Shown piece by piece: positions 33,407 through 50,670 of a stretch of 64,000 bases of DNA. How positions within the stretch are numbered: position 1 is the stretch's first letter; each line of letters begins with the position of its first letter. Under the pieces are notes generated by a model. The model made no database searches. It saw only the letters and a program-made list of their open reading frames with translations, and was not told the DNA's origin. Position numbers and translations under genes: made by a program. The stretch comes from Arthrobacter luteolus NBRC 107841 (GTDB lineage Bacteria; Actinomycetota; Actinomycetes; Actinomycetales; Micrococcaceae), in NCBI RefSeq assembly GCF_001552075.1, contig NZ_BCQM01000005.1, positions 62,001-126,000 of the forward strand, given 5' to 3'.

Positions 33407-33866
33407 GGTGGTTACTCCAAGACAATCTGCGCTGGCGCTTGCTGCATCAAGGGGAAAGCACAAGCGGCGCTCTTTTCATGTGACTGACTACACTCAACCC
33501 GGACCTGGACCCTGATTCCCAGAACCCTGATGGGCATGAATGAGTGCAGATAGCAGACACAAAGGACTACTCAACGTTAGGTGAGACCCCGTTTGCAGTC
33601 AAACCGGGGGCCGCGGGGCCTGTTCATACAGAATTTTCCACACCTGTGGACAAGTTCCCGTATGGGCCTTTCACAGTCAAATGTGAGTCCCGCCCCAAGT
33701 CAAGCAGGGGCGCCGGATTCCGGCTACCGACAGCCGAACTGATGCTCTAGGCTTGGCGCTGGGTGTTTATCCACGACTGTGTATAACTCTGTGGATGACT
33801 CTTCCGGATCCAGGCCTGGATTCCGGTTTCTTAAACCGCCCCCTGCGGGCGTCACGAGAGGTTTTT
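33407..33866. promoter_or_regulatory. rpmH-dnaA intergenic control region with DnaA boxes
   Basis: 460 bases between divergent starts. A perfect DnaA box reads TGTGGACAA at 33645-33653 (reverse strand TTGTCCACA). One-mismatch boxes are TTATCCACG (33767-33775), TGTGTATAA (33778-33786) and TGTGGATGA (33790-33798). The cluster just upstream of dnaA fits autoregulation. Promoter elements are not clear enough to place. Confidence 0.8.
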
Positions 33867-35285: not shown

Positions 35286-35849
35286 ATCCGCGTCAGCGCG
35301 CGGATTAGAGGGCCCCGCAGGGGCTCGAAATTAACACGTGTGGACAAGGGTGTGGATAACTCGGTGGATAACACCTCTCAGCGGGTATTGCCCTGTGGAT
35401 ACGCGGAACTGCAAAATAGTTCCCAACAGCCCCGCCCTGCACGTAGGCTGAGCGTCCACAGGTTATCAACAGGCTTAAAACGCCGGAACGCCCGGCAGGG
35501 TCGAGTTATCCACAGTATCCACAGCAGTTATTAACACTACGAATCTTAAGAAATTGGGTTCCACCAAATAACATCCGACCTTCCGGACCAAACATCCGAT
35601 GTTCCATCTGCCTGCTCCGCAGGTCCTGGAACGGGTGGGGTGAACCCCTTTGGGCATTGGCACAATGCCCGCTGTGAACGGATCCTCGTCCCCCGGTAAA
35701 TGACAACCTGCCGGCGGTAAGCTGGCACAGGGTATTGTTGTGATTCCCAGCGGGCAGACCGGGCGTCCTGGCAGCCCGAAATGCTCCCTCACGTGTTCAT
35801 GAAAGTTCAGTAGTACTGATAAGTACGTTGTGAAAGGCGGCACCCTGCA
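35286..35849 (+). other. Chromosomal origin oriC
   Basis: The 564-base gap between dnaA and dnaN, the usual actinobacterial origin. Perfect DnaA boxes: TGTGGACAA (35339-35347), TGTGGATAA (35351-35359), TTATCCACA (35506-35514). Near matches: GGTGGATAA (35363-35371), TTATCAACA (35463-35471), GTATCCACA (35515-35523). An AT-rich stretch (TTATTAACACTACGAATCTTAAG, 35528-35550) may be the unwinding element. dnaN's promoter should lie in the right-hand half. Confidence 0.9.
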
Positions 35850-48711: not shown

Positions 48712-49554
48712 ATGTCCTACGGAATTCCGGCCGGCCCGCCGGCCCCTGAAGTACCTGTCTGCCCGCGGCATCCCGACCGCGTCAGTTATATCCGCTGCCA
48801 GCGCTGCGGGCGGGCCGCCTGCCCTGAGTGCCAGCACAGCGCGCCGGTGGGCATCCAGTGCGTGGACTGTTTCCAGGACAGCCGCCGGAACACCCCCGCC
48901 TACCGGACTCCCTACGGCGGCGCCGCCCGGACCGGAAAACCGGTGGTCACCACAACGCTCATGATCCTGTGCGGAGTCGCCTACGCCCTTCAATGGCTGG
49001 TGCCGGGCTTCGCGGAGCAGTTCCTGTTCGCTCCCATCCTCGCAGCGTCCGAACCGTGGCGGCTGATCAGCGCTGCGTTCCTGCACTCCCCCGGGTTTAT
49101 CCTGCACATCGCGTTCAACCTCTATGCGCTGTGGCTCCTGGGCCGGACCCTGGAACCACTGCTTGGGCGGGTCCGGTTTATCCTCCTGTACCTGATTTCT
49201 GCGCTTGGCGGCTCTATCGGTGTCCTCATGCTGGCACCGGCCTTCCAAGCCGTGGTGGGCGCTTCAGGCGCCATCTTTGGGCTGTTCGGCGCACTGTTCG
49301 TCATACAGCGTCAGCGCGGCGGCGATGTTAAGGCACTGCTGATCCTCATTGGGATCAACCTCGTTCTGGGGTTCGTCTATCCGAGTATTTCCTGGCAGGC
49401 GCACCTGGGCGGATTGGTGACAGGTGCTGCATGTGCCGCGGTGCTGGCGTATGCGCCCAAGGGCCCGCGCAGGCCGCTGGTGCAGTTCGGCGGCCTCGCC
49501 GCGATCGCCCTGGTGCTGCTTGGCCTCGCCTTCTTCTGGACACCCAGCTTCTAG
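48712..49554 (+). CDS. Rhomboid intramembrane serine protease with N-terminal zinc-binding motif
   Basis: A 280-residue protein with six membrane helices. Catalytic Ser185 in GASGAIFG and His231 in WQAHLGGL, typical of active rhomboids that cut membrane helices. Residues about 16-45 hold a B-box-like cysteine/histidine cluster (CPRHPDRVSYIRCQRCGRAACPEC) before the first helix. Substrates unknown. A stem at 49574-49606 (CAGCAGGCC...GGCCTGCTG) follows the stop. It converges on crgA. Confidence 0.93.
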   Translation: MSYGIPAGPPAPEVPVCPRHPDRVSYIRCQRCGRAACPECQHSAPVGIQCVDCFQDSRRNTPAYRTPYGGAARTGKPVVTTTLMILCGVAYALQWLVPGFAEQFLFAPILAASEPWRLISAAFLHSPGFILHIAFNLYALWLLGRTLEPLLGRVRFILLYLISALGGSIGVLMLAPAFQAVVGASGAIFGLFGALFVIQRQRGGDVKALLILIGINLVLGFVYPSISWQAHLGGLVTGAACAAVLAYAPKGPRRPLVQFGGLAAIALVLLGLAFFWTPSF

Positions 49555-49573
49555 CTGCCCGCCGCGCTTCTCT

Positions 49574-49606
49574 CAGCAGGCCTCCGGTAAAGCCGGGGGC
49601 CTGCTG
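49574..49606 (+). terminator. Rhomboid gene hairpin
   Basis: CAGCAGGCC-T-CCGG pairing with CCGG-G-GGCCTGCTG around TAAAG, 20 bases after the stop; no T-tract. Confidence 0.65.
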
Positions 49607-49983
49607 CGGGTTAACCGCCTCATCCCTGCCCTGCCCCCCACAGCCGGATGGTTATCCACAGAGATACCCACATTGTTAATAACTTACAGGCGTGTAACTC
49701 AGCGCTCCGCAGGTGCCGAAACTGGCACCATTCGGGTCATTCTGTGGACCCGACCACGTTATCCACAGGCTTGGCTGAGAGTTATGCACACTCGGTGGGT
49801 AACTCTCTTCCGAAGTTATCCAGTGCTGTGTCTGAGTTACACACATGTAATTCCACAGCTGTGGATAACTATATTCCCCGTAAACACGGCAAATCTGCTC
49901 GAACTGACCACAGAGTTACCCACAGTTGTGGATAACTCTGTGCACATGGTGGGTACAACCTCGCCTTGGTTTCACTCAAGTTA

Positions 49984-50023
49984 TCCCCAGCTTTTCCACC
50001 TCGTCCTGTGGAAAAGCTGGGGA
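49984..50023. repeat. Perfect 16-base inverted repeat inside the DnaA-box cluster
   Basis: TCCCCAGCTTTTCCAC (49984-49999) pairs fully with 50008-50023 across an 8-base loop. There is no T-tract on either side, so a plain terminator role is doubtful. The left arm begins inside a near-match DnaA box. Confidence 0.85.
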
Positions 50024-50196
50024 TGGGGCGGCCGGAGTGGCTGCCAGTCAGCCGGCGCCGTTCTGAACAGCTTATGCACGCCTGTGGATAACGCCCTGTG
50101 GAGAAGTTGCCCCACTGTGGGTAAGGCTGTTTAAAACACGAAATCCCGGCAGGCGGAGGACCGCGTACCGGGAGTTCTGGTTAGTGTGTGGGAGGG

Positions 50197-50454
50197 TTAG
50201 CGCCAGCGGGTAGTCATCAGGAAGCCGACGATTGCGAGTCCGAAACCGACCAGGATGTTGCCTGATCCCAGTGCTGGGACCGGATACACGCCCTCGGAGA
50301 TGTAAAAGACGATGATCCAGATCAGTCCGATCAGCATCAGGCCGAACATCACCGGCTTGTACCAAACCGGATTGGGTTTCGGTGCGGTTTTTCCCTTGGC
50401 AGCAACGGGTGCCTCGGCGGCTGACGGCTTCTTGCGGGACTTTGACTCGGGCAC
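50197..50454 (-). CDS. crgA: Cell-division protein CrgA
   Basis: An 85-residue protein with a Lys/Pro/Ala N-terminus (1-28) and two membrane helices (about 34-54 and 64-80) framing a short outer loop, ending TTRWR. This matches CrgA, a septation regulator/divisome stabiliser of actinobacteria. GTG start at 50454 with AGGAGG five bases away. Confidence 0.95.
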   Translation of the reverse strand: MPESKSRKKPSAAEAPVAAKGKTAPKPNPVWYKPVMFGLMLIGLIWIIVFYISEGVYPVPALGSGNILVGFGLAIVGFLMTTRWR

Positions 50455-50670
50455 GGATCCTCCTAGCGGAACCGGCTCACTTCATGCCGGTGCGGTTATG
50501 GTCTGTGGGAAGGTCCGCGTGCCTCGCCCCTCAGACCGGTGCAGCGATATCCTGGCTGGGTATCGGCGGTGAGCTGGGTGGCTTGCAGGTTCCCCTCTGC
50601 CAATCGTAGCGAATGACCAGCACCAAAGTGCCCGGTACCACCGGCAGAGCAGAGAGAGGACCGGGACCGG

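Follow-up and report, generated by a model that had tools for sequence, protein, structure and literature searches.

The non-coding gap between the convergent rhomboid and crgA genes of Arthrobacter luteolus NBRC 107841 is probably an old control site for the timing of DNA-replication start. It appears very likely that this gap is a DnaA-binding control locus of some kind. For the whole proposal, namely an inherited, crgA-linked DnaA control locus acting mainly as a high-affinity sink that delays the next start, we estimate a probability of about 0.55, and for titration as the main action of the gap we would put the odds somewhat below even. The E. coli sites datA and DARS, which switch DnaA off and on, have been worked out; to our knowledge, the tuning of DnaA after initiation is much less clear in actinobacteria.

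The window, that is the whole stretch of 64 kb analysed here from contig C5 (62001–126000), contains a gap of 642 bp into which both neighbouring genes end, with five perfect and six one-mismatch DnaA boxes inside it. This agrees with a preliminary description of the same DNA, which had reported a dense box cluster in a convergent gap of about 640 bases, about 14 kb from oriC. The three perfect boxes that it gave for the dnaA–dnaN origin were actually two (35351 and 35506). The features used below, with positions in the window, are as follows.

33767–33798, no strand: unit of the same layout as in the gap, upstream of or at the dnaA start (boxes 33767+, 33778−, 33790−)
35339–35523, no strand: oriC boxes between dnaA and dnaN, two perfect and five one-mismatch, for comparison
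48712–49554, plus strand: rhomboid gene (PF01694), ending into the gap, start picked by eye
49555–50196, no strand: convergent non-coding gap with the DnaA-box cluster, from ORFs, Pfam, box counts and shuffles
49574–49606, plus strand: 15-bp hairpin directly behind the rhomboid gene, terminator-like, without a T-run (z −3.9)
49652–49660, plus strand: perfect DnaA box, alignment column perfect in 25 of 29 genus genomes
49759–49767, plus strand: perfect DnaA box, less conserved (genus mean identity 0.39)
49782–49790, plus strand: one-mismatch DnaA box TTATGCACA, genus mean identity 0.80
49860–49868, minus strand: perfect DnaA box, without a mismatch in 28 of the 29 genus genomes
49916–49924, plus strand: one-mismatch DnaA box TTACCCACA, facing the 49927 box at 11 bp start to start, mean identity 0.89
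49927–49935, minus strand: perfect DnaA box, without a mismatch in 27 of the 29 genus genomes
49939–49947, minus strand: weak tandem box ATGTGCACA, 8/9 to TTRTNCACA, completing [+ 11 − 12 −] with 49916 and 49927
49981–49989, plus strand: one-mismatch DnaA box TTATCCCCA, left arm of the 17-bp hairpin
50007–50015, minus strand: one-mismatch DnaA box TTTTCCACA, right arm of the 17-bp hairpin
50072–50080, plus strand: weak box TTATGCACG, 8/9 to TTRTNCACA, facing 50083 at 11 bp
50083–50091, minus strand: perfect DnaA box
50097–50105, minus strand: one-mismatch box TTCTCCACA, completing [+ 11 − 14 −] with 50072 and 50083
50116–50124, minus strand: one-mismatch DnaA box TTACCCACA
50144–50173, minus strand: terminator-like hairpin behind crgA, on the crgA strand (z −4.3)
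50197–50454, minus strand: crgA (PF06781), ending into the gap

A chance origin of these boxes was rejected, since shuffles of both the window and the gap stayed far below the observed numbers. The perfect box TTATCCACA occurs seven times across the window, five of them inside the gap, against a mean of 0.14 and a maximum of 2 in 100 window shuffles. For the gap itself, 1000 dinucleotide-preserving shuffles gave a mean of 0.001 and a maximum of 1 for perfect boxes (5 observed), and a mean of 0.12 and a maximum of 2 for boxes with at most one mismatch (11 observed). A genome-wide count, proposed with the preliminary description, showed the gap to be the largest group of perfect boxes. The whole genome (3.92 Mb, 32 contigs) contains 27 perfect boxes versus 4 for the reversed control, and 347 versus 180 when one mismatch is allowed. 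Besides the 5 perfect boxes of the crgA gap, 3 are located upstream of dnaB, 2 at oriC and 17 elsewhere, none of the last within 10 kb of one another.

Data on the composition of the gap qualified some earlier details. The perfect hairpin is present as described, its arms being 17 rather than 16 bases long (49983–49999 and 50008–50024). They contain or overlap one-mismatch boxes whose mean identity in the genus is just 0.45–0.50, which places this hairpin outside the conserved skeleton. The AT-rich patches also exist, with a GC content of 0.43–0.55 in the middle of the gap (49640–50030) except for 0.63 at 49700–49759; GC is 0.63–0.78 at the rhomboid end and 0.50–0.63 in crgA, and in view of the latter value the AT-richness is modest. 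A scan for terminators with T-runs called neither of the flanking hairpins and found one terminator-like match inside the cluster, at 49948–49965 (1 found, 0.5 expected). No RNA family reached threshold at 49500–50500. The convergent neighbours and the count of promoter-like sites in the gap (0 versus 0.3 expected) support, for A. luteolus, the earlier view that promoter control is unlikely. In addition, a GTG-start ORF of 236 codons (49424–50134, plus strand) spans the whole box cluster; we regard it as spurious, given its out-of-frame overlap with the rhomboid end and the fact that the boxes account for the sequence.

The alignment of the rhomboid–crgA gap in relatives, likewise proposed earlier, found the boxes conserved in the genus. 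For these comparisons a strong box was defined as TTRTCCACA and measured behind the crgA stop against a reversed control. All 29 genus genomes have crgA, and in all 29 at least three strong boxes lie within 1 kb behind it (reversed control 0). Mean identity to the window was 0.64 in box columns of the genus gap alignment versus 0.40 in the other gap columns. Beyond the genus, crgA is present in 112 of 118 class genomes; with the own family left out 110 remained, and 100 loci were read. In the 1 kb that follows the crgA stop, these 100 loci carry 102 strong boxes (reversed control 0), 100 of them in the first 400 bp and 71 in the first 100 bp. At least one strong box was found at 65 of the 100 loci and none at 35, and 55 of the 65 box-bearing loci have just one or two. 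When one mismatch to TTRTCCACA is tolerated, a box is seen within 350 bp behind crgA in 33 of 34 families.

Density comparisons gave a similar picture at more distant loci. A set of named genomes comprised 80 loci, of which 2 were dropped because the contig ends early and 78 were counted over 400 bp each. At these loci 94 strong boxes lie in 31.2 kb inside versus 17 in 1387 kb outside, i.e. 3.0 per kb versus 0.012 per kb (control, 2 and 2 boxes), with at least one strong box at 55 of the 78 and 2–4 within 400 bp behind crgA at the Streptomyces loci of the set. Outside the class Actinomycetes, crgA was present in 37 of 91 genomes, and the 20 loci read of these 37 had 10 strong boxes in 8 kb inside versus 0 in 75 kb outside; a strong box was found at 8 of the 20 and a box with at most one mismatch at 15.

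Other genera of the own family, for which 34 of 58 genomes were read, seemed at first to lack the site in 21 cases, there being no strong box within 1 kb of crgA. Wider reading overturned this for most of them: when 19 of the 21 loci were read over 7 kb, a cluster (at least five boxes within 600 bp, one mismatch allowed) was found 1.3–6.8 kb from crgA in 14, and 13 of these 14 displaced clusters have a rhomboid gene adjoining or within about 0.7 kb. The position of the displaced clusters next to the rhomboid gene suggests that crgA and the site were separated by inserted genes and that the site remained with the rhomboid gene. The other 5 of the 19 had neither cluster nor rhomboid gene within 7 kb of crgA. 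The remaining two of the 21 genomes were G037, with three one-mismatch boxes at 0.7–0.8 kb, and G056, where the contig ends. crgA is followed by a rhomboid gene in convergent orientation in 28 of 29 genus genomes, at 66 of the 100 class loci and at 76 of the 80 named loci (search reach 2 kb for genus and class loci, 8 kb for named loci where available), and among genus, class and named loci none was found behind crgA in the opposite orientation. The distance between crgA and dnaA was 7.7–131 kb with a median of 21 kb, and at most 60 kb in 55 of the 63 genomes with both genes on one contig (6 of them cross the record start, and a circle was assumed). Extra ORFs were seen between crgA and the DnaA-box cluster at L178, L179 and L185, from other genera of the family; those of L179 and L185 resemble, by eye, a LysE-type exporter and a LysR-type regulator.

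The boxes behind crgA are also laid out in a recurrent way. Pairs of boxes no more than 40 bp apart at the 100 class sites were facing in 51 cases, tandem in 47 and back to back in 2, with spacing peaks at 10–11 and 23–24 bp for facing pairs and at 12–13 bp for tandem pairs. Among the 34 families, 25 have facing pairs at 9–30 bp, 24 tandem and 4 back-to-back pairs. Offsets counted from a strong box, as means of 21 families, favoured an opposite box at +10 (z 11.8) and +23 (z 12.9); for boxes of like orientation the favoured offsets were +12 (z 9.9) and −13 (z 8.3), with z values taken against 30 shuffles and the next offsets at z 4.0–4.8. Thus the recurrent unit is [+ 10 − 13 −] or its mirror image, a facing pair plus a third tandem box. 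The gap contains two three-box units, 49916+/49927−/49939− and 50072+/50083−/50097−. The unit is not universal, the 11-bp facing pair being present in 12 of the 29 genus genomes. Under loose scoring (7/9) the gap gave 8 facing, 12 tandem and 3 back-to-back pairs at 9–15 bp; with so many loose pairs, single weak boxes prove little. A terminator as the reason for facing pairs was considered and not favoured, the hairpins flanking the boxes, though uncalled by the T-run scan.

The most stringent form of the pair is confined to two neighbourhoods. The exact facing pair TTNTCCACA-N(1-2)-TGTGGANAA occurs at 11 places in 10 of 118 class genomes (control 0): 7 are behind crgA, 3 lie up to about 1.1 kb upstream of dnaA and 1 is about 3 kb downstream of dnaA, with none away from crgA or dnaA in the 118 whole genomes. 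The downstream case (G116:C126:23180-23199) is a perfect palindromic pair, and another lies upstream of dnaA in the same genome. In the window, five one-mismatch boxes around the dnaA start (33634–33798) form two facing pairs 11 bp apart, one of them with a tandem third. On the dnaA–dnaN side, 24 of 30 dnaA loci, those with full or nearly full flanks, gave 10 tandem pairs and no facing or back-to-back pair, with any box in just 13 of the 24. L285, one of the six loci left out for incomplete flanks, by which its offsets were shifted, has a facing arrangement on that side. The contrast in layout between the crgA site and oriC is weaker than it appears.

A second group apart from oriC is located beyond the window, some 52 kb to the left of oriC (G000:C5:44874-45109; L096:2875-3110). 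It has three perfect and two one-mismatch boxes about 160 bp upstream of the dnaB ORF (PF03796), with ssb further upstream, and corresponds to the dnaB-upstream DnaA site of M. tuberculosis. Three perfect boxes each, with similar spacing, were also seen in G045 (C4:28078-28300) and G073 (C19:34441-34663).

We take Rv0011c of M. tuberculosis to be crgA. The preliminary description knew of no described equivalent at this locus, and this was wrong, since the syntenic gap binds DnaA in two mycobacteria according to the portion of Hicks et al. 2020 used here (PMC7738170). In that study DnaA was mapped in vitro for M. tuberculosis and by ChIP-seq for M. smegmatis, and the five bound regions named are oriC, rpmH–dnaA, Rv0057 upstream of dnaB, Rv3843c–RVnc0040 and Rv0010c–Rv0011c (PMC7738170). 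The last is described as a palindrome of two box-like sequences, for which the authors considered both titration and nucleotide exchange and, in this portion of the paper, saw no correspondence in other species (PMC7738170). Variants of the palindrome had longer cells at an unchanged initiation rate, like dnaA variants, which the authors likened to hypomorphs; both neighbours of the site are described as unchanged in expression in M. tuberculosis dnaA mutants (PMC7738170). By this description, Rv0010c–Rv0011c and the gap studied here are both non-coding, near oriC and at the crgA 3′ end, with a DnaA-box cluster that has a facing pair (here 49916+/49927− and 50072+/50083−). The gap in A. luteolus is larger and has more boxes. 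The mycobacterial site, as described, lies upstream of the Rv0010c gene start instead of between convergent genes, and hence convergence is not universal.

In A. luteolus, the counterparts of three other mycobacterial DnaA regions (oriC, dnaA-upstream and dnaB-upstream) carry boxes too, and by this analogy DnaA binding at the crgA gap is likely. From the portions of the source cited, a lone box is not bound by the DnaA of M. tuberculosis and is bound weakly by that of S. coelicolor (PMC4285127), which would fit a site built of pairs.

According to the proposed model, the gap has been passed down together with its crgA neighbourhood within the class Actinomycetes; it is also found next to crgA in further classes of the phylum. 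High-affinity boxes would hold DnaA, in many cases as a facing pair with a tandem third. The site, 14 kb from oriC, would be duplicated soon after each initiation, and this early duplication would change the amount of free or active DnaA; as a high-affinity sink, it would delay the next initiation by titration. Judged from the DNA sequence, the gap may control initiation in A. luteolus in this way. Two points stand against the proposed control site, namely the 35 of 100 class loci without a strong box and the 5 of 19 family loci without a cluster. The earlier suggestion of a titration or reactivation site gains support from boxes that recur in genus, class and phylum and from DnaA binding at the mycobacterial gap, while the choice between the two actions is left undecided. 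Two features point to a sink, the count of perfect boxes in the genus and the closeness to the origin; the layout together with the mycobacterial phenotype favours reactivation. Most box-bearing class loci, with one or two strong boxes, are small sinks, which argues against titration; the long cells of M. tuberculosis, as far as the source describes them, also speak against it, since loss of a sink should rather raise DnaA activity.

For comparison with E. coli MG1655, DARS1 and DARS2 were presumed to lie beside bioD and beside mutH, where both cores were read as [+ 14 − 12 −], start to start. Three equally spaced core boxes, the first opposite to the others, are also given for both in the part of the review drawn on here (PMC5742627). 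The crgA unit thus shares their order [+ − −], its first box likewise facing two tandem ones, so that there is a facing and a tandem pair in each. On a reactivating reading, facing pairs would make ADP-DnaA lose its ADP, supply ATP-DnaA and promote initiation; this is possible and rather doubtful. The commonness of facing pairs (51) and the rarity of back-to-back pairs (2) at class crgA sites argue for it, as does, from what the source describes, the phenocopying of dnaA variants with longer cells by mycobacterial pair variants (PMC7738170). However, the spacing shared by the DARS cores is not found here, with 10–11 bp for facing pairs (14 in DARS) and 12–14 bp for tandem pairs (12 in DARS), and only 25 of 34 families have a facing pair at 9–30 bp, as do 12 of 29 genus genomes at 11 bp. 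DARS2 of E. coli, as described, has IHF and Fis sites (PMC5742627). Boxes for which E. coli DnaA has a preference, in the cited part of another report, are pairs 2–3 bp apart (PMC11317965), close to the 12–13-bp tandem step of the crgA site. Moreover, the same layout is present upstream of dnaA, where the usual role of DnaA boxes is autoregulation. Inactivation in the manner of datA, in which DnaA on the boxes would hydrolyse its ATP once the site is replicated, seems improbable. Non-coding DnaA-box clusters are common to datA, to the crgA gap and to S. coelicolor and B. subtilis, where clusters near oriC repress untimely initiation and are likened to datA in the portions of the sources available (PMC5742627, PMC4585315), and the near-origin place of the crgA gap is similar. 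The layout thus speaks for DARS and the place is more like these clusters. By contrast, the essential datA boxes of E. coli are all described as pointing in one direction (PMC5742627), whereas the crgA gap, counting all boxes, essential or not, has both directions, and facing pairs are as common as tandem ones. A high-density DnaA-box region near oriC of E. coli is thought to favour titration in the part of the source cited (PMC12371093); unlike the crgA gap, it is described as a regional trend and not as one conserved locus with a set layout.

Two further readings place the function outside DnaA tuning. DnaA or hairpins may halt or modulate the transcription of either neighbour, crgA or the rhomboid gene; the class site is close behind crgA (the first 100 bp hold 71 of the 102 strong boxes), any facing pair forms an inverted repeat as well, and the terminator-like match at 49948–49965 is inside the cluster. 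We regard such an effect as quite improbable, since separate hairpins flank the box cluster at either end, gene insertions parted the cluster from crgA but not from the rhomboid gene, and the neighbours' expression, as described, was unchanged in M. tuberculosis dnaA mutants (PMC7738170). An auxiliary replication origin, another earlier candidate, would be in keeping with the many boxes and AT-rich patches in the genus. It found no support and is very improbable, given a box-bearing dnaA–dnaN region 14 kb away and one or two strong boxes at 55 of the 65 box-bearing class loci.

What is new here is the phylum-wide spread of the site and the recurrent DARS-like layout; DnaA binding at the mycobacterial locus is known. 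In a literature search mostly without subscription papers, we found no description of the crgA gap as a phylum-wide DnaA site and no DARS named in actinobacteria. One S. coelicolor cluster, from a 2006 paper, is by our guess the crgA gap.

Our results can help to place the mycobacterial site, since that 'cryptic' DnaA site would become a case of a phylum-wide element. A non-coding site behind crgA in most sampled families also offers a discrete DNA segment that can be deleted, relocated and assayed. We think it unlikely that the crgA gap is a DnaA reactivation site of Actinomycetota, at which facing DnaA pairs about one helical turn apart would exchange ADP for ATP. If true, the DARS type would extend far beyond the relatives of E. 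coli, in an element of distinct geometry near the origin and tied to a division gene. The link to a division gene raises the question of whether replication and division may be coupled at the crgA gap.
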